Assembly (NCBI GenBank): GCA_937951215.1
Contig: CALFCE010000399.1
Location: forward strand, 1 to 39,208
DNA from: an uncultured Granulosicoccaceae bacterium
Lineage (GTDB): Bacteria; Pseudomonadota; Gammaproteobacteria; Granulosicoccales; Granulosicoccaceae
Length of the DNA: 39,208 nt
Direction of reading: 5' to 3'
In this document: positions 18,370 through 38,289 of the stretch, in pieces
How positions within the stretch are numbered: the stretch's first letter is position 1
Layout of the letters: the number at the start of each line of letters is the position of its first letter
The notes under the pieces: model-generated
The model's input: only the letters and a program-made list of their open reading frames with translations
Databases searched by the model: none
What the model was told of the DNA's origin: nothing
Translations under genes and position numbers: made by a program

Positions 18370-19086
18370 TCAAATACCGATGAAGGGTTGCATGATTCTA
18401 CCGACCATGCCGGTATATTGGGCCGGTGAGTTGGTTGCCACAACTGCAATACAGGGCTCGTTACTATCAATAACAGGGCAGTGGGTGACGTCGGCTCCCA
18501 GGTCGGCAACGTCGCCTACGCCGTAGCGCCCGGTTGAATCGGAATACGATCCTTTCAGTACCAGCGTCAATTCGATATCTCCATGACTATGCTCGATCAG
18601 CTTGACACCGGGTTGAAGTTTCAGAAGTTTAAAAGCCCCGGTCCTGTGATTGCTTTTGCTGCCGTCTGCATGTCTGAGTGTGTAGTGTTTTATGCCTTTG
18701 GCCATGGTGCTCCAGGGTAGCGCATCGAGGTCTGCCGGAATTCGTCTGGCAAGAGGCCGTGGGACATCTGTTGACAGGAAGCGCGCATTATCAGTCTCTT
18801 GAGCGGGTTTCTGAGTTGTTTTAAGGCTCTGCAATTGGTCCGCTGCTGTATCGTCGGTTTCTGAATTGCGCAGGCGATTCAGGAGATCGCTGGCAGAGTG
18901 CGATACCTCGACAGGTTTCGTGGCATCGAGCAAATGACCGCCGACATGATCTGCGGTGTGGGAGCGCTGACGACAGTGCGAACACAGGGTCAGGTGACTG
19001 GCCACCACAACCTCAAGTGCTTCATTGAGGTTTCCTGATGCGTACTCAATCAGAGTTTCGTCGCTTAAGTGATGTGTAATATTCAT
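18370..19086 (-). CDS. chrR: ChrR-type zinc anti-sigma factor
   Basis: Binds and silences the neighbouring ECF sigma factor until singlet oxygen or related damage triggers its release. ATG 19086 rather than 19101 makes the protein start MNITHHLSDE and puts zinc ligands at H6, H31, C35 and C38, the same positions as in Rhodobacter sphaeroides ChrR; 238 aa. The N-terminal ZAS domain contains HLTLCSHC. The C-terminal cupin domain has HSHGDIELTLVLKGSYSD (HxHxxxE metal site) and a later histidine in DVTHCPV, again as in ChrR. The end (IMQPFIGI) also matches. The linker (residues about 60-110) is longer and low in complexity. An unusual 157-bp gap separates it from rpoE. Confidence 0.93.
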   Translation of the reverse strand: MNITHHLSDETLIEYASGNLNEALEVVVASHLTLCSHCRQRSHTADHVGGHLLDATKPVEVSHSASDLLNRLRNSETDDTAADQLQSLKTTQKPAQETDNARFLSTDVPRPLARRIPADLDALPWSTMAKGIKHYTLRHADGSKSNHRTGAFKLLKLQPGVKLIEHSHGDIELTLVLKGSYSDSTGRYGVGDVADLGADVTHCPVIDSNEPCIAVVATNSPAQYTGMVGRIMQPFIGI

Positions 19087-19111
19087 TACGTTCTCTGTCA
19101 TGTGTTCATAA

Positions 19112-19140
19112 TGATTTGGTACAAATTAAGGTCCAAATCA
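19112..19140. repeat. Inverted repeat upstream of chrR
   Basis: TGATTTGG (19112-19119) and CCAAATCA (19133-19140) are perfect 8-bp arms with 13 bp between. It begins 26 bp upstream of the chrR start inside the long rpoE-chrR gap. It could be an operator, an RNA hairpin lowering chrR expression relative to rpoE, or a remnant promoter region. Confidence 0.55.
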
Positions 19141-19242
19141 GGAGCCAAAAATTCTCGTCGTGAGTCAAATCTGACTACTACTTGTTAATTTTTATCTACT
19201 CTACAAGGCCCAATTCTGGAAGCCCAACTCATAAAGCCAAGT

Positions 19243-19887
19243 TCAGGTTTTTCGGGAAATAGCACCAGCACCTTTGGGCAGTTGCATTCCTTCTCTTATA
19301 CTTTGCATCGCCAATCTGATTCGTGATTTCACTGTACCCACCGGCAAATCCAGCCACAGAGCGATGTCACCATGTGACTGCCCTCGAAAGTAGGACAGAT
19401 GCATGACCTGCTGTTGCTCGTTCGGGAGCTTGCTCAAAGCTTCCGACAGCTTCCGGGTGTCCTGTTCCCGAATAGCAAGTGTCTCCATGGAATCGGCATC
19501 GTGATGGCTATCCGGTCCATGCTCGAGCAACGAATCATCCAGCTCTACCTCGACTCTCGAATTCCCTCTCAGATAATCGATCCTTTTGTTTCTGGCTATC
19601 GTGAAAATCCACGTGCTTGCAGCAGCCTTGCCCGGGTCATAGCTGGAGGCCCGACGCCATACAACCAGCATGATTTCCTGCATCAGCTCTTCGGCAGTAT
19701 CGATTTCCATTCCCTTGCCGAGCAGGAAGGATTTCACGCGACCGGCAAAATGTTCGTAAATAGTTGCAAACGCCGTCTCGTTTTGCGTTCGCCCGATCGC
19801 GACAAGACAGTCGTTGAGCTTTTTCCTTTCAGTGTCCTGCTTCGAACCCCCGGTTCCGAGGTCCAGAGCGGGTTTAACTTCTGTCAT
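19243..19887 (-). CDS. rpoE: ECF sigma factor, RpoE of the ECF11 (ChrR-partner) type
   Basis: Alternative sigma factor that directs RNA polymerase to TGATC-type promoters. The tracked GTG (19899) is passed over for ATG 19887, which has GGAG 6 nt upstream; 214 aa. Region 2 (residues about 35-105) contains FATIYEHFAGRVKSFLL, AEELMQEIMLVVWRRASSYDP and STWIFTIARNKRIDYLR. Region 4 (about 150-200) has LSKLPNEQQQVMHLSYFRGQSHGDIALWLDLPVGTVKSRIRLAM. The STWIFTIARNxRID block and the ChrR partner place it in ECF11. It is probably autoregulated through the promoter at 19905-19933. Confidence 0.93.
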   Translation of the reverse strand: MTEVKPALDLGTGGSKQDTERKKLNDCLVAIGRTQNETAFATIYEHFAGRVKSFLLGKGMEIDTAEELMQEIMLVVWRRASSYDPGKAAASTWIFTIARNKRIDYLRGNSRVEVELDDSLLEHGPDSHHDADSMETLAIREQDTRKLSEALSKLPNEQQQVMHLSYFRGQSHGDIALWLDLPVGTVKSRIRLAMQSIREGMQLPKGAGAISRKT

Positions 19888-19904
19888 TTCTGGCTCCACA
19901 TGCT

Positions 19905-20013: not shown

Positions 20014-21525
20014 ATGGTAACCAAAAGCCGACAGAAGGTGGGAATTATTGGCAGTGGAGCAGCCGGATTATCGGCGGCCTGGCTGCTGAATCACGTGCAC
20101 GAAGTCACGTTGCTGGAGCATGAGAATCGCTTGGGCGGACATGCGCACACGGCTTGGATCGATTCCGTCACAAATAAGCTGGTGACGCAAGATCAACTGC
20201 CGCACTCAGGCATTCTGCCAGAGGGTGTTGCCGACAATCTCGCTGGTAGTAACGCTATGAATCACGATCATGGCGTTGATAATCTGACGGCTATCGATAC
20301 CGGTTTCATTGTATTCAACCACCACACCTATCCCAATTTTTGTGCCTGGCTCGATGCCTTGGGGATCTCCTCGGAAGAGAGTGACATGTCGTTTGCGGTG
20401 TCACGTGACGGTGGTGGGTTCGAGTATGCAGGAGGCATACGTGGCGGCTTGACAGCGCAACCTGCAAATCTCCTGAAGTTAAGGTTCTGGCGCATGCTGA
20501 TTGACCTTGTGCGCTTTTACCGAAATGCATCTTCAGTGGATACGATAGATGACCGGTTGACCCTGGGGCAATTCCTTCGCGATGGTGACTACAACCAACC
20601 GTTTATCCGGGATCACCTGTTGCCTTTTGGAGCAGCTATCTGGTCCACATCGCAGGCAAAAATGCTTGACTATCCGGTCGGCGCTTTTATCCGGTTCTGT
20701 CAAAATCACAGCTTACTCAAACTCTCTGGCCGCCCGAAATGGCGTACTGTCACTGGCGGCAGTGCCAGCTACGTTAATGCCGTTGGGAGGGCCTTGGGTG
20801 CAAACCGTATCCGTTGTGATTTCAGTGTTGAATCGGTTGAACGTTCTACTGAGGGTGTCAAGGTGCGTAGTGCGGCTGGTGAGTCGCTGGAATTTGATCA
20901 AGTGGTATTTGCCTGCCACGCGGATCAGGCCTTGGCAATGCTGGCGCAGCCTGATGCCGCGGAGCAGTCGCTGCTTGGCGCGTTCCGCTACGACGAAAAT
21001 CTGGCGTACTTGCATACCGACAAGCGATTTCTGCCGAAAAGGCGAGCAGCCTGGGCCAGCTGGAATTACATCGAGCACGGAGAACCTGATCTCGAGGCCA
21101 AGCCCGGTGTTAACTACTGGATGAATCAGCTGCAGAATCTGAAGGGAGACACTGACTACATCGTCTCTCTGAACCCGTCTATCGAACCTTCACCAGAGCT
21201 GGTCTTGCGCAGTACCACTTATACTCACCCGATATTCAACGCCGAGACGTATCAGTCGCAACAGTCACTTTGGCAGCTGCAGGGTATAAATCGGAGCTGG
21301 TTTTGTGGCAGCTACTTTGGCTCGGGTTTTCATGAAGATGCCATCCAGTCCGGGTTCGCGGTGGCTGAACAGCTGGGTGGAATATCGCGGCCCTGGAGTG
21401 TCGAAGGTGAGTCAGCTCGAATATTTGTCAACAGGTCTCCGCTTTCTTCGGCAAACCCGTCAACAAATCAGGTTGCTGATCCAGTTGGGGCCGAGGTTAC
21501 TTCCCGGGACAAAACACCGGCATGA
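20014..21525 (+). CDS. FAD-dependent amine-oxidase-like protein (COG2907 type)
   Basis: Predicted flavin oxidoreductase acting on membrane lipid chains; 503 aa. The N-terminus has the dinucleotide fold VGIIGSGAAGLSAAWLL followed by the TLLEHENRLGGHAHT segment of the amine-oxidase/desaturase family. Other family motifs are DTGFIVFNHHTYPNFCAWLDALGI, SDMSFAVS, FGAAIWST, WRTVTGGSASYVNAV and a C-terminal FAD segment (WFCGSYFGSGFHEDAIQSG). A homologue is a member of the Rhodobacter RpoE-ChrR regulon and has been tied to furan fatty acid formation there; applying that here is inference. It has an ECF promoter and overlaps the next gene by 4 bp. The C-terminal about 45 residues are polar and not conserved-looking. 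Confidence 0.85.
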   Translation: MVTKSRQKVGIIGSGAAGLSAAWLLNHVHEVTLLEHENRLGGHAHTAWIDSVTNKLVTQDQLPHSGILPEGVADNLAGSNAMNHDHGVDNLTAIDTGFIVFNHHTYPNFCAWLDALGISSEESDMSFAVSRDGGGFEYAGGIRGGLTAQPANLLKLRFWRMLIDLVRFYRNASSVDTIDDRLTLGQFLRDGDYNQPFIRDHLLPFGAAIWSTSQAKMLDYPVGAFIRFCQNHSLLKLSGRPKWRTVTGGSASYVNAVGRALGANRIRCDFSVESVERSTEGVKVRSAAGESLEFDQVVFACHADQALAMLAQPDAAEQSLLGAFRYDENLAYLHTDKRFLPKRRAAWASWNYIEHGEPDLEAKPGVNYWMNQLQNLKGDTDYIVSLNPSIEPSPELVLRSTTYTHPIFNAETYQSQQSLWQLQGINRSWFCGSYFGSGFHEDAIQSGFAVAEQLGGISRPWSVEGESARIFVNRSPLSSANPSTNQVADPVGAEVTSRDKTPA

Positions 21526-22421
21526 ATCAATTTTTTGGCAAGCGAGGGCAGCAGACTCCGGTTGGCCAGCCAGTCGCAGAAGTCACTCCCAAATCCATTG
21601 AGAAAAACAACGTTTTGTATCAAGGGAGTGTGCTTCACAAGCGCTTTCGTCCACGTCGACACAGCTTGAAATATCATGTATTTTCATTGCTACTGGATAT
21701 AGATCAACTAGATCAAATCGACAGGAAGATTCGCTGCTTTTCGAGAAACAAATGGAACCTGTATAGCTTTCATGATGTTGACTTTGGCAATCGGGATGGT
21801 GAACCGCTCAGGCCTTATGTACTGGAAAAACTGGCTGAAGCAAACATCGCTGTTTCTGTAGGAACCATAAAATTGCTTTGTTATCCGCGTATGCTTGGAT
21901 ATGCGTTCAATCCGCTGAGTATTTATTTTTGCTACAGCGCTGATCAGCCCGATTCGGAATCTGCGGATGTTGTGGCTATCCTGTACGAGGTTCATAACAC
22001 CTTCGGTGAAACTCACACTTACGTCATTGATCCAACAAAGACTGGCAACAATCTATCAAATACTGACAGGACTGCGGATGAAACAACCCATGCTTTGTCT
22101 CGTGGCAAAATTGCGCGTCACAGTTGTGATAAAAAAATGCATGTATCGCCATTTGCTCCGATGGACATGAACTACCGGTTTCGTATCAGCTATCCCGACG
22201 ACAATCTTTCGCTGGCGATACAATTGTCCAATGCACAGGGCATGATGCTGACAGCATGTTTCAATGGCATAAGACATGATCTTTCGCAAAGAGCGTTGTT
22301 GCGAAATTTGTTTTCTTATCCGCTCATGACGGTAAAAATTATTGGTGGCATTCACTGGGAAGCTTTGTTGCTGTGGCTCAAGGGAGTGCCGTTGTTCCGA
22401 CATGTCAAGCAAACATCCTGA
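21522..22421 (+). CDS. DUF1365 family protein
   Basis: A 299-aa protein of a family almost always found between an FAD amine-oxidase-like gene and a Cfa-like gene. Signatures are VLYQGSVLHKRFRPRRHSLKYHVFSLLLDID, LLCYPRMLGYAFNPLSIYFCYS and AILYEVHNTFGETHTYV. Later come MHVSPFAPMDMNYRF and the closing ALLLWLKGVPLF. The first about 28 residues and a central insert (residues about 170-195) are variable. The molecular function is unknown; the context implies a role in modifying phospholipid acyl chains. It overlaps the upstream gene as ATGA and is 75 bp from the methyltransferase. Confidence 0.88.
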   Translation: MNQFFGKRGQQTPVGQPVAEVTPKSIEKNNVLYQGSVLHKRFRPRRHSLKYHVFSLLLDIDQLDQIDRKIRCFSRNKWNLYSFHDVDFGNRDGEPLRPYVLEKLAEANIAVSVGTIKLLCYPRMLGYAFNPLSIYFCYSADQPDSESADVVAILYEVHNTFGETHTYVIDPTKTGNNLSNTDRTADETTHALSRGKIARHSCDKKMHVSPFAPMDMNYRFRISYPDDNLSLAIQLSNAQGMMLTACFNGIRHDLSQRALLRNLFSYPLMTVKIIGGIHWEALLLWLKGVPLFRHVKQTS

Positions 22422-22496
22422 ACCCGTTGACTACAGGACTTGACTGTCGATCTTTTGGAATTCTTAGGGAATAATCAGAAAGGGAATAATTAAAAA

Positions 22497-23855
22497 ATGA
22501 GCATTGATGAAATGAAATTCGCTGGACAAGTTGAATCCAACAATCGACTTGTAAGGAATAGCGAGATAACTGCCTCTTCACTTGCTGAACATGGTCATGA
22601 GACTAGTACTGTTTTGAAAAATAGCATCGACAAATTGATGAGTACCGCGTTGCAAACACGCTTTTCAAAAATTGTTAGTGGTTTTGAAGAGGGTTATCTT
22701 CGTGTTCAGTGGCCCGATGGTTCGATCACTGAACACGGCGAAGACAATCCGGTTGGTGAACCGGTTGAAGTCATTTTGCATGACTACGATCCCATCAAAC
22801 GGATGGCACTCAATGGCAGTATTGGATGGGCAGAGTCCTATATGGATGGGCACTGGAGTACCAACGACATATTCGAATTGTTTATGCTGTTCCTGAAAAA
22901 TGAACACCGATTCCCTTCGGCCGTAAGAGGCTCATGGTTTGCGAAGTTGGGCAACACACTGTTGCATCGCTGGAATAAAAACACACTGAGCGGCTCCAAA
23001 AAGAATATTGCCAGACATTATGATCTTGGCAATGATTTCTATCGCATTTGGCTGGACGGCAGCATGAGTTATTCATCTGGTGTCTACAATTCTGAAGATG
23101 ATTCGCTGGAGCAGGCACAGAAGAACAAGATCCAGATGGTTCTGGACGCCGTCGATTCAAAGCCTGGTGATCGCGTTCTCGAAATTGGTTGTGGATGGGG
23201 GGCCATGGCTAATGCGTTAACCAGCCGCAATAATTGCGAAGTGACTGGTATTTCACTGTCCAAAGAGCAGTTGCAGTATGCCAACGAAAACCTGCTTCCC
23301 GCACCGCACGCAGACAATGCCAAGGCATCCGGTGGAGAATTGTCGCCAGTGAATCCACCGAAGTTCGCATTTTGTGACTATCGAAAAATGTCCGGGCGGT
23401 TTGACCATATTGTTTCAATTGAGATGTTTGAAGCGGTAGGACGTGAATACTGGGACGAGTATTTCAGCACGCTAGCGAATTTGCTGGATAAAGGTGGCAG
23501 CGCGGTTTTGCAAATCATCACTATTCTGGAAGAGAGATTTGACGACTATTGCAAACGACCGGATTTCATCCAGAAATATATTTTTCCCGGTGGTATGTTG
23601 CCCACCCGAGAGCAGCTCAATGAGCTCGCTTCAAAGCACGGTTTTGAAGTGCGGCACACAGAATCGTTTGGCCTGAGTTATGCCCGTACCTTACGTGATT
23701 GGCGTGATCGCTTCGACAGCTCTTTGGGTGAAGTCAAGTTGCAAGGTTTTGATGACAGTTTTATCAGGATGTGGCGTTACTATCTAACCTATTGTGAAGC
23801 AGGCTTCACTACAGGAACCACTGATGTCGGTCTGTGGAAGCTGGTTAAACGGTGA
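22497..23855 (+). CDS. Cyclopropane-fatty-acid-synthase-like SAM methyltransferase
   Basis: Adds a methyl or methylene group from SAM to the double bond of phospholipid acyl chains. At 452 aa it is longer than E. coli Cfa (382), with an N-terminal extension of about 50 residues. The N-terminal lipid-binding part contains GYLRVQWPDGS and WAESYMDGHWSTNDIFELF. The catalytic domain has the family block ARHYDLGNDFYRIWLDGSMSYSSG, SAM motif I LEIGCGWGAMA, VTGISLSKEQLQYA, FDHIVSIEMFEAVG and YIFPGGMLPTREQL. In Rhodobacter the homologue in this regulon (UfaM) methylates vaccenate en route to furan fatty acids. True Cfa activity is equally possible from sequence. A GGGA site lies 11 nt before the ATG. 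Confidence 0.9.
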   Translation: MSIDEMKFAGQVESNNRLVRNSEITASSLAEHGHETSTVLKNSIDKLMSTALQTRFSKIVSGFEEGYLRVQWPDGSITEHGEDNPVGEPVEVILHDYDPIKRMALNGSIGWAESYMDGHWSTNDIFELFMLFLKNEHRFPSAVRGSWFAKLGNTLLHRWNKNTLSGSKKNIARHYDLGNDFYRIWLDGSMSYSSGVYNSEDDSLEQAQKNKIQMVLDAVDSKPGDRVLEIGCGWGAMANALTSRNNCEVTGISLSKEQLQYANENLLPAPHADNAKASGGELSPVNPPKFAFCDYRKMSGRFDHIVSIEMFEAVGREYWDEYFSTLANLLDKGGSAVLQIITILEERFDDYCKRPDFIQKYIFPGGMLPTREQLNELASKHGFEVRHTESFGLSYARTLRDWRDRFDSSLGEVKLQGFDDSFIRMWRYYLTYCEAGFTTGTTDVGLWKLVKR

Positions 23856-30186: not shown

Positions 30187-31257
30187 ATGATCAAACGCTA
30201 TCTTGGAATAACGCTGGTCGCCGCAAGCTTGCTGGTGGTTGGTTGTTCATCTAGTGATGATGAGGGTGATCCCATGGATACCACCACGGGTGGAACCGAG
30301 GGTGGCACAGAAGGTGGTACTGAGGGTGGCACCGAAGGTGGTACTGAGGGTGGCACCGAAGGCGGTACTGAGGGTGGCACCGAAGGCGGTACTGAGGGCG
30401 GCACCGAAGGTGGTACTGAGGGCGGCACCGAAGGTGGTACAACTGGTGCGCCGACCACAACAGGTGGTGGGGACGAAACAACTGGCGGTGGTACATCTCT
30501 TAGCGTTTCCAATGCAACGAATGCGACTGGCGGCGGCAACGCTTCTGTATGGGTAGTTCATGCCAGTGGTAATGGACCCGCACTTGAAATGATTGCTGAT
30601 GGTGACGACACCGTTACATTTTTCGGCTCTCCAACTGATCCGGGTGCACAACTCGCCTATCAGGGTGATACAACCGCTCGTGGTCGTATTGACTTGATTC
30701 AGCTGTCTGTTCCACCTGCAGCCTACGATCTGGATATCATCAACGACTTTTATGCTGGAAACCGATCTCCTGTCGCTGAAGTAGCGCTGGACGCAGGTGC
30801 TGGATCAGCAACGTTGCTGGTTGCCCGTGGAGACATTGGTGATGCGGAAACACCGTTCGAGCTGAGATCCTTCACCGCTGAGCCGAAACCTGATGATCCC
30901 AATAATGCAAAAGTACGGGTCATCCATGCAGCACGAGGCTTGAATATCCTTTTTGGTGGATGTAACTGTGCCACGACCGACCTGGATATATACCTTGATG
31001 TCACTGGTACCGAGCCACTGAGCAGCACTCCAATACCGCTGTCTTATGCTTCTGTGTCTACCGGTTACCTGGAAATAGTCGGTGCGTCCTATACGATCTC
31101 GGCTACCGAGCGCGGTGTCCCGGACAATGTCCGTCTGCAGTTGACGGATATCAATCTGGCTGGTGGAACCGTTACCTCTTTTGTCGTCAAGGATAGAGCT
31201 GGCGGAGTATTCGGTGTCGAAGGTGATGTACTGGGTATCAACGATATCCAGCAGTAG
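30187..31257 (+). CDS. DUF4397-type lipoprotein with a Gly-Gly-Thr-Glu repeat stalk
   Basis: A 356-aa secreted lipoprotein. The signal ends in the lipobox LLVVGC (cysteine at residue 20), followed by SSSDDEGD, an acidic +2 region compatible with outer-membrane sorting. Residues about 35-82 are twelve perfect GGTE units plus GGTT, then a Thr/Gly-rich linker to about residue 115. The rest resembles DUF4397: ASVWVVHASGNGPALEMIADG, LIQLSVPPAAYDLDI, then a second half starting AKVRVIHAARGLNI, LDIYLDVTG, GYLEIVGASYTISATE. The two halves are likely Ig-like beta domains. The stalk probably holds them off the membrane. AGAGGA precedes the ATG. The gene stands alone between the spacer and a hairpin. 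Confidence 0.82.
   Translation: MIKRYLGITLVAASLLVVGCSSSDDEGDPMDTTTGGTEGGTEGGTEGGTEGGTEGGTEGGTEGGTEGGTEGGTEGGTEGGTEGGTTGAPTTTGGGDETTGGGTSLSVSNATNATGGGNASVWVVHASGNGPALEMIADGDDTVTFFGSPTDPGAQLAYQGDTTARGRIDLIQLSVPPAAYDLDIINDFYAGNRSPVAEVALDAGAGSATLLVARGDIGDAETPFELRSFTAEPKPDDPNNAKVRVIHAARGLNILFGGCNCATTDLDIYLDVTGTEPLSSTPIPLSYASVSTGYLEIVGASYTISATERGVPDNVRLQLTDINLAGGTVTSFVVKDRAGGVFGVEGDVLGINDIQQ
30289..30444 (+). repeat. 12-bp minisatellite, 13 units, with a 24-bp higher-order period
   Basis: Twelve 12-bp units each encode GGTE; a thirteenth encodes GGTT. From the third unit on they alternate GGYGGTACTGAG and GGYGGCACCGAA, giving a 24-bp super-repeat. This means the array grew by doubling a two-unit block. 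Changes between copies are almost all synonymous. Unit loss or gain keeps the frame. Confidence 0.92.
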
Positions 31258-31401: not shown

Positions 31402-32247
31402 TCAGGCTTTTTTCAGTGCTCTGGCATGGAAGGTCATATGATCGCCAAAGTAGGTAGCAATGAAATGATAGCTGTGGTCGTATCCGTCTCGCAGGTTGTA
31501 GTCGAGAGATAATCCTTGCTTTGCGCATGCCTCTACCAGAGCCTCTGGTGCGAGGTAATCCGCCAAAAACTCATCGTCCCCTCCCTGATCTACCTTCAGC
31601 GGCAGATCGGCAGAACCATTCCCGGCGTTAACCAGACAGGTGGCATCGTAACTTTTCCAGGCTTCAAGATCGTCTCCCAGATAAGCGTCAAAACAGCCTT
31701 TGCCCCAATCACAATTGATCGGGTTGCAGATAGGGGCAAACGCAGAAGCTGATTTGTACATCCCTGGATTTTTCAACGCACAAATCAACGCACCGTGACC
31801 GCCCATGGAATGACCGCTGATGGCCCGCCGTGTACCGTCCAGCGGTAATTTGCTCTCCACCAGCGCCGGCAACTCCGAAACAATATAGTCATACATCTGA
31901 AAGTTCTTTTTCCAGCGTTCGGTGGTGGAATTGACGTAAAACCCTGCGCCATGACCCAGATCATAGCGTTCAGGTTCATCGGGCACGTCATCACCGCGCG
32001 GGCTGGTATCCGGAATGACCAAAGCGATGCCATGTTCTGCCGCATAGCGTTGGGCACCTGCCTTGGTGCGGAAGTTGTCGTCAGTACAGGTTAGGCCTGA
32101 AAGCCAGTACAAAACCGGTACGCTACCGGCAGTGGAAGCTGCCGGCAGGTAAACCGAAAACGTCATTTCACACTGGCAGGTTTTGGACTGGTGGGTATAA
32201 CGATTGAGCCAACCGTCCCACTCCTTTACGGACTCGATTTGTTCCAT
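31402..32247 (-). CDS. fghA: S-formylglutathione hydrolase
   Basis: Hydrolyses S-formylglutathione to formate and glutathione, the second step of formaldehyde detoxification. The 281-aa esterase-D-family alpha/beta hydrolase has PVLYWLSGLTCTDDNF, the nucleophile motif GHSMGGHGALICALKNPG, SAFAPICNPINCDWGKGCF, the DEFL acid region and the catalytic histidine in YDHSYHFIATYFGDH. The start codon overlaps the adhC stop (TGATG), so the two are translationally coupled. Confidence 0.96.
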   Translation of the reverse strand: MEQIESVKEWDGWLNRYTHQSKTCQCEMTFSVYLPAASTAGSVPVLYWLSGLTCTDDNFRTKAGAQRYAAEHGIALVIPDTSPRGDDVPDEPERYDLGHGAGFYVNSTTERWKKNFQMYDYIVSELPALVESKLPLDGTRRAISGHSMGGHGALICALKNPGMYKSASAFAPICNPINCDWGKGCFDAYLGDDLEAWKSYDATCLVNAGNGSADLPLKVDQGGDDEFLADYLAPEALVEACAKQGLSLDYNLRDGYDHSYHFIATYFGDHMTFHARALKKA

Positions 32248-33356
32248 CAGAAAGTAACCACTGAACGAATGCTCTCACCCGAGTGCATCAGGTCAAAAGC
32301 GGTGTTGATTTCTTCAATAGGCATGGTGTGCGTGACCATGGTATCCAGTTCGATCTTGCCATCCATGTACTGATCGACGTAGCCTGGCAGCTGGGTTCGA
32401 CCCTTGACACCACCGAAGGCGGTACCTTGCCAGCGTCTACCAGTGACCAGCTGGAAGGGGCGTGTGCTGATTTCCTGACCTGCACCGGCCACACCGATAA
32501 TGGTTGATACACCCCATCCCATGTGACAGCACTCAAGCGCTTCGCGCATCACGTGAACATTACCAATGCATTCAAATGAGTAGTCGACTCCACCATCCGT
32601 CATGTCAACGATTGCCTCGGTCAGGCCAGTGCTCAAGTCCTTCGGGTTTATAAAGTCAGTTGCTCCCAGCGCTTTGGCCATGTCAAATTTGGCCGGATTC
32701 ATATCAATAGCCAGAATACGTCCCGCTTTTGCCATAACAGCACCCTGAATAACCGACAGGCCTATTCCACCCAGCCCGAAAACGGCCACGGTTGAACCAG
32801 GCTCCACCTGAGCTGTGTTGAGGACTGCGCCGATGCCGGTCGTCACACCGCAGCCGAGAAGACACACTTTGTCCAGTGGGGCCGCAGGATTGATTTTGGC
32901 GAGTGCGATTTCAGGTACCACGGTGTATTCAGCGAAAGTGGAACAGCCCATGTAATGGTAGATCGGCTTTCCGTTTTGCGAGAATCGACGCCCACCATCC
33001 GGCATAAATCCGGTCCATACAGTACCGGCGATTTTCTGGCACAGGTTGGTTTTGCTGGATTGGCAAAATTTGCACTCTCCACACTCGGAGATGTACAACG
33101 GGATGACATGGTCGCCCGGTTTGAGATCTTTCACACCGGGCCCGCACTCAACGACTTCGCAGCCACCTTCATGGCCGAGTACTGACGGAAAGACTCCCTC
33201 AGGATCTTCGCCCGACAGGGTAAAGGCATCGGTATGGCAAACACCTGACGCTACCACTTTCAGCAGCACCTCGCCTTCTTTTGGGCCTTCAACATCTATC
33301 ATTTCGATGGAAAGCGGTTTCTTCGCTTCCCAGGCAACGGCAGCCTTCGCTTTCAT
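32247..33356 (-). CDS. adhC: S-(hydroxymethyl)glutathione dehydrogenase / class III alcohol dehydrogenase
   Basis: Oxidises S-hydroxymethylglutathione (formaldehyde adduct) with NAD; may also reduce S-nitrosoglutathione. The 369-aa length is typical. Zinc ligands are visible in [12 protein letters not shown] and LGHEGGCEV (catalytic) and in [16 protein letters not shown] (structural). The NAD fold is [15 protein letters not shown]. The segment [17 protein letters not shown] is also diagnostic of class III. GGAG lies 9 nt before ATG 33356. No FrmR-type regulator lies nearby. Demethylation by the 11438 flavoprotein would be one formaldehyde source, though the loci are 18 kb apart. Confidence 0.97.
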
Positions 33357-33561: not shown

Positions 33562-35076
33562 CTATTGAAAGGCGGTTTCGAAGAAGCTGCGCAGCTTGCG
33601 CGAGTGGAGTTTCTCGGGGGACATGGCCGCCAGCCGGCGCAAGGCATTGATGCCTATTTCAAGATGTTGAGCGACCTGCCGGCGATAAAATTCTGATGCC
33701 ATGCCGGGTAGCTTGAGCTCCCCCTGCAGAGGTTTGTCGGACACACAAAGCAGAGTACCGTATGGCACACGTAACCTGAAGCCGTTTGCTGCAATGGTCG
33801 CGGATTCCATGTCCAGAGCGATAGCCCTGGATTGGCTTAGCCGTCGGACGGGCTCCCTCTGGTCCTGTAGCTCCCAGTTGCGATTGTCATTTGAGGCAAC
33901 CGTACCCGTGCGCATAATCTCTTTTAGATCGATGCCATCGAGGCCGGTCACCTCCGCTACTGCTGATTCCAGCGCTTGCTGTATCTCGGCCAGTGCGGGG
34001 ATAGGGACCCAGACCGGGATATCATTGTCGAGCACATGGTCTTCGCGTACGTAGGCATGAGCCAACACGTAATCGCCCAGCCGCTGGGTATTGCGCAAAC
34101 CGGCGCAGTGTCCGAGCATCAGCCATGCATGGGGGCGCAATACCGCTACGTGGTCGGTGATGGTCTTGGCATTGGAAGGCCCTACACCGATGTTAATCAG
34201 TGTGATGCCACGATTGCGTTCAGCCACAAGGTGGTATGCAGGCATTTGAGGCATTCGATCGGGCGCATCGCCGTGGGCTGGAATCTTTGCTCCCCTTGGT
34301 GTCACCACATTTCCGGGTTCAACAAAGCACTGGTATTGCACGTCCCCATCTTTTCCGTCCGCATCCGCCATCAGGGACTTGGCGTAGCGACAGAACTCAT
34401 CGATATAAAACTGGTAGTTGGTGAACAGGATAAAGTTCTGGAAGTGTTCCGTGTTGGTGGCAGAGTAATGCACCAGCCGGTGCAGCGAGTAATCGATGCG
34501 CTGTGCTGGAAAAGGTGCCAAGGGTACTGGCAGCCCGGGGATCGGATCATAGGTACCGTTAACGATGTAGTCGTTAACGTGACTAATGTCGGGTACATCA
34601 AAGCAGTCACGCAGTGATTCGATGTTATTTCCTTGCCCATCCGGATGCGAGGATGCGGTCAGGGCCTCTCCCGGTTCAAGTGCAAAGTGCAAGGGAATAG
34701 GAATGTTTGACTCGGTAATCTGAACTTCCTGGTGATGATTTTCCATTAGCAAGCTGATTTGATCGATCAGATAGCTGCGGAAGAGCAGCGGCGCGGTGAC
34801 CGTTGTTGAATAGCTGCCGGGCTGATCAACATGCCCGTACGACAACCTCGAGCGAGTGTGAGAATAGGAGAAATTCTGAAACACGATTTCCGGGTAGCAC
34901 GCTCGATGTCGCCTGGTCAATGTACCGGCATTGGCCTTTTGCAGATAGGCTTGAAACGAACTTCTGAGAAACTCAGTGTTACGGGTGTATATTTCAGTCA
35001 GATAGTCGACTGCAAGTGATGCATCTTTGAACGAACGGGTGGGGAGTTTTTCCGGGGAAAGAAAAGTCTCTGTCAT
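33562..35076 (-). CDS. amn: AMP nucleosidase
   Basis: Splits AMP into adenine and ribose 5-phosphate and so controls adenylate pools; 504 aa against 484 in E. coli. The N-terminal domain shows YPEIVFQNFSYSHTRSRLSYGHVDQPGSYSTTVT and the middle FILFTNYQFYIDEFC. The C-terminal phosphorylase-like domain has TLINIGVGPSNAKTITDHVAVLRPHAWLMLGHCAGLRNTQRLGDYVLAHAYVREDHVLD and a MESATIAANGFRLRVPYGTLLCVSDKP segment. It lies 77 bp downstream of the transporter gene on the same strand, so co-transcription with the ATP-grasp cluster is possible. Confidence 0.95.
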   Translation of the reverse strand: MTETFLSPEKLPTRSFKDASLAVDYLTEIYTRNTEFLRSSFQAYLQKANAGTLTRRHRACYPEIVFQNFSYSHTRSRLSYGHVDQPGSYSTTVTAPLLFRSYLIDQISLLMENHHQEVQITESNIPIPLHFALEPGEALTASSHPDGQGNNIESLRDCFDVPDISHVNDYIVNGTYDPIPGLPVPLAPFPAQRIDYSLHRLVHYSATNTEHFQNFILFTNYQFYIDEFCRYAKSLMADADGKDGDVQYQCFVEPGNVVTPRGAKIPAHGDAPDRMPQMPAYHLVAERNRGITLINIGVGPSNAKTITDHVAVLRPHAWLMLGHCAGLRNTQRLGDYVLAHAYVREDHVLDNDIPVWVPIPALAEIQQALESAVAEVTGLDGIDLKEIMRTGTVASNDNRNWELQDQREPVRRLSQSRAIALDMESATIAANGFRLRVPYGTLLCVSDKPLQGELKLPGMASEFYRRQVAQHLEIGINALRRLAAMSPEKLHSRKLRSFFETAFQ

Positions 35077-35153: not shown

Positions 35154-36380
35154 CTATTTCGGTTTTAGGGTTATTGCTTGATCTGTTGAACTCGTTAGCT
35201 GCTCCGTCGGACGTCGGTAGTAGAAATAGACTAGTGATGCAACAGCTGCGATTCCGTAAATTATTTGCAGGCTGAGGCGCTCATCTGCAATCAGGTAAGT
35301 CAATATGGCCAGAAGCAGAAACACGATAAAAACCGCCATTTGGGTGTAATAGCTTTTAACGATCAGATAGTGATTACCTGAGGTGGCATTGGCTATATCG
35401 AAAAATCGTTTGTTAAAAACCAGCCTGAAAAAAGACGTACAAAAAGTGATAAGCAATAATCCCGACACCATCCAGACTGCCGATGTTTCTTCTGACAGCA
35501 TTATCCTGAATGACCAGCCTGCGCAATAGAGCAGCACTGCGAGCTGAAACAGGTATGAGCCGGCAACACGATCAATCGTATTTTTTGCGGTAAAAAACAC
35601 GACACCAAACAAGGCTGCCAGCACGATCACGACAATGCCGAAACTTGCAAAGTTCTGATTGCTGATCAAGAAAAGCGAAATTGTCCACAGGTGGCTTTCG
35701 AGAAACAGAAAAAGGCCATCGATGACAAAGATGCGTCTGGAGTGCAAGGGGTCTCGGTATTGGATCAAGCTTTTCAGATCAATGGATTTCTCGTACCGAA
35801 TTTGCATGATCGGTTGCGGGTGATTGCGGTGGTAAAAGTAGAACGCCATCGCCAGCGTCAAACTCGCAGAGAGCAAGAATATCCATAGAAAATTATCCGT
35901 TTCCAGTAGTAAACCACCAAACAGGATACCGGCCTTGAGGAAAAGGCTGACAAAAATTTGCAGGTTACCGTACTGTCGTCCGGAATTGCTCGATGTCACC
36001 AGCTGCAAAAACAGGCAGCGCTGTGTGGTCCAGAAAAAGCAGTTGTAGAATCCGTTGGCAATAGCCAGCGGGACTATCATGTGATTGGTCGCGCTTGTCT
36101 GCGATGCCAGTGCGACGATCGTCAGTTCCAGAAAGAAGGTCAGCAGCAGCACGGAGATAATACTTTGGTGCCTGGCAACGTGCTCCCAGAGACGCAGGCC
36201 GATGCAAAAACTCAGACCGGAGCCTGACACAAAAAGGCAGATAACCGGTAAAGGCTGTCCCATTTGCCAAAGCCAAACAGGAATGAAGAACGGGAACAAT
36301 CCAATCAGTAGCGAGTGGGCACCCAGAAACTGGTAAAAAAACAGAAATCGGGACTTACCGTTTGTCGCCTGTTTATTCAA
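35154..36380 (-). CDS. Multi-pass membrane transporter, MFS-like
   Basis: A 408-aa integral membrane protein with about 12 hydrophobic segments. Examples are SLLIGLFPFFIPVWLW, VICLFVSGSGLSFCIGL, SIISVLLLTFFLELTIVALA, FLWIFLLSASLTLAMAFYF, FGIVVIVLAALFGVVFF and FIVFLLLAILTYLIA. A central cytoplasmic loop (RNHPQPIMQIRYEKSIDLKSL) splits two six-helix halves, as in the major facilitator superfamily. I see no substrate motif. The only in-frame start before helix 1 is TTG 36380. Upstream of it the frame is open back into the end of the ATP-grasp gene, so coupling to that gene is likely. The context suggests it exports the ligases' product. Confidence 0.75.
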   Translation of the reverse strand: MNKQATNGKSRFLFFYQFLGAHSLLIGLFPFFIPVWLWQMGQPLPVICLFVSGSGLSFCIGLRLWEHVARHQSIISVLLLTFFLELTIVALASQTSATNHMIVPLAIANGFYNCFFWTTQRCLFLQLVTSSNSGRQYGNLQIFVSLFLKAGILFGGLLLETDNFLWIFLLSASLTLAMAFYFYHRNHPQPIMQIRYEKSIDLKSLIQYRDPLHSRRIFVIDGLFLFLESHLWTISLFLISNQNFASFGIVVIVLAALFGVVFFTAKNTIDRVAGSYLFQLAVLLYCAGWSFRIMLSEETSAVWMVSGLLLITFCTSFFRLVFNKRFFDIANATSGNHYLIVKSYYTQMAVFIVFLLLAILTYLIADERLSLQIIYGIAAVASLVYFYYRRPTEQLTSSTDQAITLKPK

Positions 36381-36445
36381 GCCAGGCTGCTCATCCGGGG
36401 AATGGTCTGACCAGCCTGAGTTGCCAGCGGGGAACGAACAGGCTC

Positions 36446-37354
36446 CTAGAAGGTGTCGTTATCAACAACAGCCAGTTGCTCCATTCGCCCATAAAACCCG
36501 CTCAGATCCTCTTTGTCACCGTAGCGCGGGTAGTCATGCATCTTCATATACGGCCGTGAATTGACTTCCAGCAAGATGCACTTTTGGTCGCCATGAGGCT
36601 GCTCTATGCCGTTCTCGAAAATAACATCGACACCGAGCACATTGGCGTCGAATAGTCGAACAACTTTCTGGAACAGTTCCACGTTCTCTTGCGGCAAGGA
36701 TTTCTTGTCGATAATTTCTACCACCCCACCTGGTGCCAATGCGACGCGGTTAAAGAGATAGATTCGTTCTCCAGCAGCCGGCACGCTGGATAAATCCAGG
36801 CCTTGCTTTTTGAGGTAATTTGAAACCGCCTGACTCTTTTTTATCGGATAGATCGTTGGGTGAAGCTGCATTTCCTGTCTGATCTTGTTTTCCTGATCAA
36901 TCAAATCGTCGATTGAGTGCTGGCCGTCACCATCAATGAAAGGCGGGTAGCGCCTGATCACCGAAACGATTTCGTCTTTGGTCGTCAGCACTCGATAGTT
37001 GGCTCCCAGCAGGTATTGCTCCACCACGCTGGTAGGCCACCACACTTTAACCATCAGGGCTGCTTTCCAGAGCTCAGCATAGTTGGTTATCGGAAAATGG
37101 CTGCCGCGTGAAAAACCGCTGACGTTAGGCTTGATGACCAAAGGGAAGCCGTGCTGATCTGCAAATTTTTTGGCTGTCCAGGGATTCAGGAATATTTTTC
37201 CTTTGGCGTGCGGAACCTGGTTCTCGCTGAACATGTCGCGTGCCTGCGCCTTGGAGCGACAGCTTTTTCTGACCTGCAGCGAGTTGTAGTTGCTGCATCC
37301 ATCCATGTATTTTTTGCTGATCCATGCATACAGCCACTTTTTGGGAGAATTCAT
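36446..37354 (-). CDS. ATP-grasp ligase, cyanophycin-synthetase-like
   Basis: Predicted carboxylate-amine ligase of about 302 aa (ATG 37354; the tracked start 37366 is a GTG). Residues about 20-60 carry the SKAQARDMFSENQVPHAKG segment preceding the fold. Next come the ATP lysine in FPLVIKPNVSGFSRGSHF, VVEQYLLGANYRVLTTKDEIVSVIRRYPPFIDGDGQHSIDDLI, ERIYLFNRVALAPGGVVEI, NVLGVDVIFENG and the metal-binding LLEVNSRPYMKMHDYP. The GDGxHSIDDLI and GGV-EI pattern is close to the ATP-grasp domains of cyanophycin synthetase and GshF, but neither a second domain nor a Mur ligase domain is present. Substrates are unknown. It lies between the membrane-proximal ATP-grasp gene and the transporter. Confidence 0.82.
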   Translation of the reverse strand: MNSPKKWLYAWISKKYMDGCSNYNSLQVRKSCRSKAQARDMFSENQVPHAKGKIFLNPWTAKKFADQHGFPLVIKPNVSGFSRGSHFPITNYAELWKAALMVKVWWPTSVVEQYLLGANYRVLTTKDEIVSVIRRYPPFIDGDGQHSIDDLIDQENKIRQEMQLHPTIYPIKKSQAVSNYLKKQGLDLSSVPAAGERIYLFNRVALAPGGVVEIIDKKSLPQENVELFQKVVRLFDANVLGVDVIFENGIEQPHGDQKCILLEVNSRPYMKMHDYPRYGDKEDLSGFYGRMEQLAVVDNDTF

Positions 37355-37404
37355 TTTATGTCTCACAGGTCTGGAACGCTGGCGAAGACGTTTCTACAAC
37401 TTGG

Positions 37405-37441
37405 GGTCAGCAATAACCGCCGGTAGCAGCATTTGCTGACC
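37405..37441. repeat. Inverted repeat between the two ATP-grasp genes
   Basis: GGTCAGCAA (37405-37413) and TTGCTGACC (37433-37441) are perfect 9-bp arms with a 19-bp loop, starting 2 bp past the upstream gene's stop. No T tract follows on the minus strand. It may tune relative expression of the two ligases. Confidence 0.5.
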
Positions 37442-37443
37442 AG

Positions 37444-38289
37444 CTATAGAAAACTTCGCAATACCATGCCGATCGGGCGAGTTCTGCGGCTGTAGAGCAT
37501 CATCCTGGTGAATACCGGATGGGATGGCTGGCTGGAGGGTATAGCCCGGGTTGCACGTGCGAGAGATCGACCGACTCGCAAGATGAATTTCAGTTTGCGT
37601 TGCCAGGTATAGCTGCGGTCCAGCAGGTTGATCGGCATGGGGGTAAACAGGTTCAACTCGATAACGTGAAAGTTGCCGGCAATAAGATCCTCCAGGGAAT
37701 CTGCTCTGACGCTGAGTCTGGATTGGCCAAATTTGCCAATTTCCTTTTTATATGAGATCAGGCGTTGCAGATCGCCCAGGCTGAACTGGTGGGTAATATC
37801 GCGATAGTCCGTGTCAGCGTTATTGATGCTGTTGATCGGATACTGATCCGTTGTGTTGATGGCTTCAGTGACGGTGACAACATCAGCGTAGTCGAAGCTG
37901 GAATCGGCGAAGGTTGAGAAGATTTCAAACTCGCGCCGTTCTGTCGCGGCTTGCTGGACAATGTAAGTGGTATCTGCGGAAGCAAGTCGAAATTTTATGC
38001 GTTCGAGTGCGTGCTCGTCATCGGCACGCTCGATACCATTACCGTTTTGTCCCCATTCAGGCTTGATAAATACCGGGTAATGGCTGGTTTTGAAGTCGTC
38101 AGACAGACGTTGCTGCAGAAGCTGCCACTTGTGCGGAACCATCTTGTCTATGGCAATTTTTGAGAAAATACCTTTATCCCGCGAGAACAAGCGCGCATTG
38201 ATCTGGAAGTATTTCCATGGCGCGGTACGCAGCCGCAAACAACAAAGGATGTAGCAGCCAACGATAAGCGCAGAGATAAAACTTTTCAT
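37444..38289 (-). CDS. Second, atypical ATP-grasp protein with a hydrophobic N-terminus
   Basis: A 281-aa protein I place in the ATP-grasp fold on three segments. These are YPVFIKPEWGQNGNGIERADD (ATP lysine and glycine loop, residues about 70-90), TYIVQQAATERREFEIFSTF (strand with the adenine-contact region), and FHVIELNLFTPMPINLLD, in which ELN corresponds to the metal-binding ExN. The N-terminal stretch FISALIVGCYILCCL looks like a membrane anchor or uncleaved signal. The C-terminal about 50 residues are basic. It is only distantly similar to its neighbour, so the two probably act on different substrates or successive steps. A TATAAT on the minus strand at 38348-38343 may be its -10, without a clear -35. 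Confidence 0.65.
   Translation of the reverse strand: MKSFISALIVGCYILCCLRLRTAPWKYFQINARLFSRDKGIFSKIAIDKMVPHKWQLLQQRLSDDFKTSHYPVFIKPEWGQNGNGIERADDEHALERIKFRLASADTTYIVQQAATERREFEIFSTFADSSFDYADVVTVTEAINTTDQYPINSINNADTDYRDITHQFSLGDLQRLISYKKEIGKFGQSRLSVRADSLEDLIAGNFHVIELNLFTPMPINLLDRSYTWQRKLKFILRVGRSLARATRAIPSSQPSHPVFTRMMLYSRRTRPIGMVLRSFL

Follow-up and report, generated by a model that had tools for sequence, protein, structure and literature searches.

Small dipeptide clusters of the bacilysin BacD/BacE type couple an ATP-grasp ligase with an exporter of the major facilitator superfamily (MFS), a logic resembling that of the gene cassette analysed here. Other described ATP-grasp enzymes close to its two ligases are cyanophycin synthetase CphA, in which the ATP-grasp domain is accompanied by N-terminal and Mur-ligase domains, the glutathione synthetase domain of GshF/GshAB, N-acetylglutaminylglutamine synthetase (TIGR03103) and D-Ala-D-Ala ligase (Ddl). 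The cassette lies in a 39,208-nt stretch of DNA (the window; contig CALFCE010000399.1, assembly GCA_937951215.1) from an uncultured Granulosicoccaceae bacterium and encodes a divergent, membrane-anchored ATP-grasp protein (gene A), a second, dissimilar ATP-grasp ligase (gene B) and an MFS transporter, which recur together across distant bacteria and very probably build and move a small molecule. For the full explanation, two ATP-dependent ligations at the membrane that use hypotaurine or taurine as a building block, followed by export, we estimate a probability of roughly one half. An initial annotation, made from the window's sequence alone, had proposed a candidate undescribed biosynthesis and export system, and our searches of open-access papers returned no account of the cassette; its component families are known and their combination appears to be undescribed.

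Two dissimilar ATP-grasp proteins and a transporter

The three open reading frames (ORFs) lie head to tail on the minus strand (Table 1), as initially annotated. Gene A matched sequence profiles marginally (E 1.5e-4 to the D-Ala-D-Ala ligase profile TIGR01205), membership in that ligase family was rejected at 20.8 bits against a curated cut-off of 245.65, and a sequence search of the Protein Data Bank (PDB) gave no match. An AlphaFold model built on an alignment of 32 homologues was confident (pLDDT 91.0, pTM 0.88), and a Foldseek search with it revealed D-Ala-D-Ala ligases as the top matches (E 2e-8, probability 1.00, TM ~0.5), followed by PsnB, ArgX and CphA; as modelled, gene A has an ATP-grasp fold. 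Residues Lys44, Lys76, Glu120, Glu122, Arg191, Glu211 and Asn213 were invariant across the 32 homologues, a set including both ATP-binding lysines (K44 and K76) and the E-x-N metal pair (E211 and N213), and most homologues had their peak hydrophobicity at the N-terminus (KD17 2.24 at residue 4 in the window protein). The initial reading of gene A as an atypical, membrane-tethered ATP-grasp protein agrees with these marginal profiles, the fold matches and the N-terminal hydrophobic segment, the structural check having returned an ATP-grasp model that keeps the conserved lysines and the E-x-N pair. A mobile or viral origin was rejected, as IMG/VR and plasmid collections contained no relatives of A.

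Judged by its sequence, gene B is an ATP-grasp protein of the cyanophycin synthetase/GshF branch. It matched the cyanophycin synthetase profile TIGR02068 at E 1.6e-43 over residues 36-288 only, in line with its first description as cyanophycin-synthetase-like, and PDB structures of CphA and glutathione synthases at E 1e-25 to 1e-22 (7wac, E 1e-25), and it showed weak profile similarity to RimK. Residues D247, E267 and N269 were invariant across 32 homologues. Because the family members are mostly 302 aa long and align accordingly, we place the start of B at ATG 37354 rather than at GTG 37366, the choice of the ORF caller. Identity as a cyanophycin synthetase was rejected, given 302 aa against ~870 aa with a Mur-ligase domain and 148.9 bits against a cut-off of 850, as was identity as LysX, given 26.5 bits against 275.6 and no LysW-like gene found beside the cassette. 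A profile comparison between A and B aligned only 19 columns with no recognisable similarity; homology between them was rejected on this basis, in keeping with the initial description of the two ATP-grasps as dissimilar.

The transporter matched PF07690 at 34.1 bits (cut-off 33.4), and its AlphaFold2 model (pLDDT 90) adopts an MFS fold for which Foldseek returned MFS transporters, consistent with the 12-helix MFS-like protein initially described; its TTG start at 36380 is plausible. The model resembled many unrelated transporters in Foldseek and gave no hint of a substrate. Genomes of the order of Ca. Ruthia encode a VTT-domain protein in place of the MFS protein. A fusion of a VTT domain with a pyridine-nucleotide disulfide oxidoreductase was also observed adjoining A in Osedax symbionts, Nitrincolaceae and one SAR324-group genome (for example L142:6572-8737 in Oceanospirillaceae and L226:5734 in the SAR324-group genome).

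Table 1 Cassette genes and adjoining features in the window
Feature	Position	Strand	Description
Gene A	37444-38289	minus	281 aa; divergent ATP-grasp with N-terminal membrane anchor, from fold match and invariant residues
Gene B	36446-37354	minus	302 aa; stand-alone ATP-grasp akin to the cyanophycin synthetase and GshF ligase domains
MFS transporter	35154-36380	minus	408 aa; TTG start; from profile and fold
Inverted repeat	37405-37441	minus	Perfect 9-bp arms 37441-37433 and 37413-37405, GGTCAGCAA ... TTGCTGACC; in the gap between A stop and B start; read from the sequence
AMP nucleosidase	33562-35076	minus	720.9 bits; neighbour, judged outside the cassette

Conservation of the cassette and its link to cysteine dioxygenase and decarboxylase genes

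Among 95 relatives, A and B occurred in the identical 32 genomes, comprising 31 of Granulosicoccaceae (the window included) and one of another family, and further, much weaker matches to B were generic ATP-grasps. A survey with A that scanned one genome per species gave 167 candidate relatives, and 80 loci were kept, from Granulosicoccus, Neptunomonas, Amphritea, Psychromonas, Colwellia, Oleispira, Parendozoicomonas, Osedax symbionts, Ca. Spongiihabitans, Ca. Ruthia, Sedimenticola, SAR324 and Desulfobacterota. The order A-B-MFS was conserved in Granulosicoccaceae, Oceanospirillaceae, Psychromonas, Colwellia, Endozoicomonadaceae, Sedimenticola, SAR324 and Desulfobulbaceae, so that the three genes do stand together in distant genomes, which the initial annotation had named as support for a system.

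Linkage was counted over 101 distinct A loci, 98 of which had room for B. In 94 of these, B followed A on its own strand at a distance of ≤400 bp, and an MFS or VTT gene came next in 78 of 83. The four exceptions for B comprised a locus where B lies 640 bp off, an operon in decay and two SAR324-group loci without B nearby. We hold with high confidence that A, B and the transporter constitute one functional unit. An apparent A-B fusion at L116 was rejected, being two frames with stops.

Carriers of the cassette are overwhelmingly marine, and its distribution is sparse: a sample of 398 genomes from across the phylum turned up one further full match, and many marine relatives lack it. In the tree of A, the cassette of one Granulosicoccaceae genome (L063/G029) groups with other gammaproteobacterial families, suggesting horizontal transfer. 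Members of the order of Ca. Ruthia with genomes of ~1.02-1.03 Mb (L209-L211) retain a complete operon of overlapping genes, arranged as DoxX-like, decarboxylase, cysteine dioxygenase (CDO), A, B and VTT protein; at L216 (G554), this same operon is in decay.

The link to these two upstream genes was first seen at seven loci, where a pyridoxal-phosphate (PLP) decarboxylase and a CDO-like cupin form a pair directly upstream of A. The CDO-like protein scored 31.5 bits against PF05995 (cut-off 23) and aligned with mammalian CDO (CDO1) through the YTRN and SLHxYS stretches, and the nearest structures to the decarboxylase were GADL1, cysteine sulfinate decarboxylase (CSAD) and glutamate decarboxylase (GAD). 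Across the order of Ca. Ruthia, 20 of 23 A-positive genomes and none of 60 A-negative ones had an intact member of this decarboxylase clade (Fisher p 2e-16, uncorrected for kinship); one of the 20 (G554) is itself decaying, and broken remnants remain in two A-negative genomes. In this order the cassette can occur without the decarboxylase, but an intact decarboxylase does not occur without the cassette, an asymmetry expected if the pair supplies a precursor to A and B. A maximum-likelihood tree of A placed all linked loci in one clade (support 95/86) with few losses, spanning Thermodesulfobacteriota, SAR324, Sedimenticolaceae and Pseudothioglobaceae, indicating a single origin of the link, with inheritance or transfer of the block thereafter; we count it as one event and reject independent origins.

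Three active-site positions determine the selectivity of decarboxylases of the CSAD/GAD kind (PMC8153620, which cites Agnello 2013). The cassette enzymes carry Trp-Ser-Cys there (Trp-Ser-Gly in one), and the aligned PDB chains carry Phe-Ser-Tyr in human CSAD and Ser-Asn-Phe in GAD. The letters F-S-Y for CSAD and S-N-F for GAD are also those reportedly given by Agnello in 2013. At the second position the cassette enzymes thus share Ser with CSAD, whereas GAD has Asn, which, at the sequence level, suggests a sulfinate-like substrate. The window's own genome encodes a CDO-like and CSAD-like pair on another contig (L167), the decarboxylase having the motif W/S/Y and CSAD as its best PDB match (E 3.5e-75). 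Separately, in Amphritea/Neptunomonas (L173 and L174; G499 and G498), a second GAD/CSAD-like decarboxylase stands beside LysR, histidinol-dehydrogenase-like and DegT-type aminotransferase genes, possibly another sulfonate pathway.

Proposed function and competing explanations

Taking these findings together, we propose that A, B and the transporter would act as one biosynthesis-and-export unit. Each of the two ATP-grasps, B in soluble form and A anchored in the inner membrane through its N-terminal helix, would convert a carboxylate to an acyl phosphate and couple this to an amine, yielding a small amide- or peptide-like molecule, possibly lipid-linked, which the MFS protein, or the VTT-domain protein in the order of Ca. 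Ruthia, would carry across the membrane. Hypotaurine or taurine would be the likeliest amine building block: in the linked clade, CDO would convert cysteine to cysteine sulfinate and the acidic-amino-acid decarboxylase of the CSAD/GAD family would convert this to hypotaurine, while carriers without the linked pair could rely on a separate locus for the precursor or take it up from their surroundings. The analysis itself shows the linkage of the genes, the folds, the conserved catalytic residues and the connection with CDO and decarboxylase genes; we infer the two ligations, their acyl-phosphate chemistry, the substrates, the product, the direction of transport, the use of (hypo)taurine and the handling of the product at the membrane, the last of these on the grounds that A is anchored at the membrane and that a membrane transporter gene nearly always comes next. 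As a substrate, (hypo)taurine is slightly favoured for the clade with CDO/CSAD and somewhat less secure than an even chance for the window's version.

Several observations weigh against this explanation. In Ddl-type ATP-grasps, an Asp after Arg (R-x-D) is one of three metal ligands, and at that position, inferred from the R-x-D pattern, A has Ser, Gly, Ala or Cys in all 32 homologues; seemingly without the third metal-ligand Asp, A may not be a standard ligase. The two SAR324-group loci have A without B nearby, the physical link to CDO and the decarboxylase has a single origin in the A tree, and most loci, the window's included, have neither gene beside the cassette. Among Granulosicoccaceae, a related decarboxylase occurs in 13 of 31 A-positive and 2 of 17 A-negative genomes (p ~0.05, uncorrected for kinship). 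Glutamate decarboxylase narrowly leads the PDB matches of the decarboxylase from the order of Ca. Ruthia. The cassette decarboxylases in general carry W-S-C instead of the F-S-Y of human CSAD, so that their substrate could be cysteate or aspartate.

The apparently altered metal site raises the alternative that A has lost its ligase function and instead anchors at the membrane, or regulates, its partner B, which retains D247, E267 and N269, so that one bond-forming step would remain. Both lysines and the E-x-N pair of A are nevertheless invariant across phyla, suggesting retained ATP chemistry, and we consider this alternative improbable. A more serious rival is a membrane lipid product, in which A would join an amine, for instance taurine, to a fatty acid or lipid carboxylate, B would extend or cap the conjugate and the MFS or VTT protein would flip it outward. 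The N-terminal hydrophobic helix of most A homologues would suit such a role, although it may merely localise A, as would the replacement of MFS by VTT in the order of Ca. Ruthia and the VTT-disulfide-reductase fusion beside A elsewhere, since VTT-domain proteins (DedA superfamily) include lipid flippases (PMC12893004). Sulfur-containing aminolipids moreover occur in other marine bacteria, with the N-acylation gene still unidentified (PMC8319176, PMC11631085). The cassette has no linked acyltransferase gene, however, and the MFS model is similar to many unrelated transporters. Nor are we aware of an ATP-grasp enzyme with demonstrated activity on fatty acids, and overall we regard a lipid product as unlikely, though it is the strongest of the alternatives.

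A product that stays in solution, a peptide-like compatible solute or antioxidant comparable to N-acetylglutaminylglutamine amide, glutathione or carnosine, with a transporter that only tunes its level, would fit the kinship of B with the small-peptide and polymer ligases GshF, N-acetylglutaminylglutamine synthetase and CphA and the marine habit of the carriers. It has a parallel in animals, where the acidic-amino-acid decarboxylase GADL1 and an ATP-grasp enzyme lead to carnosine (PMC7367687). An osmolyte would need neither a dedicated conserved exporter nor a membrane-tethered ligase, however, and the cassette is absent from many marine relatives. We judge this rival slightly less probable than a lipid. 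Very unlikely, in our estimate, is that A and B modify a peptide or protein, by graspetide-like or RimK-like tailing, instead of joining two small molecules: Foldseek matches of A do include the graspetide ligase PsnB and ArgX, and B does resemble RimK weakly, but the similarity of A to PsnB is no better than that to Ddl, and the overlap of the genes in the order of Ca. Ruthia leaves no room for a precursor peptide. No graspetide precursor gene was found in that operon, ORFs below ~60 aa not having been systematically searched at other loci. The poor fit to known clusters, initially noted, thus stands, with no Mur domain, LysW or precursor peptide found.

Returning to ligation and export with (hypo)taurine, the CDO/decarboxylase link offers a concrete precursor candidate that would connect an orphan ligase pair to marine organosulfur chemistry; taurine is abundant in the sea. 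It is doubtful whether the cassette, through two inner-membrane ATP-grasp steps, makes and exports lipids or conjugates that contain taurine or hypotaurine and form an undescribed class widespread in marine bacteria; if so, a full cysteine-to-product operon would have been retained in the strongly reduced genomes of relatives of chemosynthetic clam symbionts. More broadly, the cassette is an unannotated, phylogenetically broad gene unit that reaches 1-Mb relatives of deep-sea clam symbionts, and its retention in ~1-Mb genomes stripped of most other genes suggests a product of importance to marine bacteria and perhaps also to the hosts of some.

Surroundings of the cassette and comparison with described systems

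AMP nucleosidase, which the initial annotation had considered a possible part of the unit, proved to be a lineage-specific neighbour. It stands beside the cassette in most Granulosicoccaceae, though not in L041, L043 or L063, and in no other family, and it has a promoter-like site of its own just upstream (TTGATA-17-TATAAT, 35125-35097; 11 of 12 matches, with TG before the second hexamer); on these grounds it was rejected as a cassette member. Outside Granulosicoccaceae, the genes upstream of the cassette often encode a small membrane protein that marginally resembles DoxX and a secreted protein with a YHS domain, and DinB and TANGO2/NRDE-family proteins often lie downstream; across 73 loci with both flanks, the counts were 38 for DoxX-like, 33 for YHS, 17 for DinB, 10 for TANGO2, 15 for CDO-like and 15 for the decarboxylase. 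PADLOC models gave no match to the cassette at E 0.01, and an anti-phage defence system was rejected on this basis. An Rfam search of the window found no riboswitch or other RNA.

Elsewhere in the window, a lipoprotein-like protein with a long GGTE repeat is encoded at 30187-31257, and relatives in the same place (cluster F6) bear other repeats and fasciclin-like sequence. The pair at 31402-33356, which from reading the ORFs we take to be S-formylglutathione hydrolase and class III alcohol dehydrogenase of glutathione-dependent formaldehyde detoxification, adjoins AMP nucleosidase only in the window and one relative. At 18370-19899 and 20014-23855 follow one another what are presumably, again named from their ORFs, an ECF sigma factor, a ChrR-like cupin, an amine oxidase, a DUF1365-like protein and a cyclopropane-fatty-acid synthase, a row that we take to resemble the photo-oxidative stress cluster.

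Compared with described systems, B aligns with the ATP-grasp domain of CphA but stands alone, lacking the N-terminal and Mur-ligase domains of that enzyme. It belongs to the same ATP-grasp branch as the glutathione synthetase domain of GshF/GshAB and TIGR03103, whereas the cassette has no glutamate-cysteine ligase or GNAT domain and instead partners B with a second, unrelated ATP-grasp and a transporter. A shares with Ddl, its best fold match, the conserved Lys and E-x-N residues, and differs from it in its N-terminal hydrophobic helix, the lack of a full Ddl N-terminal domain and the apparent loss of the Asp metal ligand. In contrast to the bacilysin BacD/BacE clusters, the cassette has two dissimilar ATP-grasps, one of them membrane-anchored, and a broad, ancient distribution that includes streamlined symbiont-type genomes. 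The sulfur-containing aminolipids of roseobacters provide a precedent for aminosulfonate head groups, and no roseobacter carriers were found among the 80 A loci kept. Finally, the enzyme pair of the bacterial taurine pathway, CDO and cysteine sulfinate decarboxylase (PMC8153620), has its like directly before A in one clade and on another contig of the window's genome; in that clade, by contrast with the described pathway, the pair shares an operon with two ATP-grasps and a transporter, and its decarboxylase carries the motif W-S-C rather than F-S-Y.

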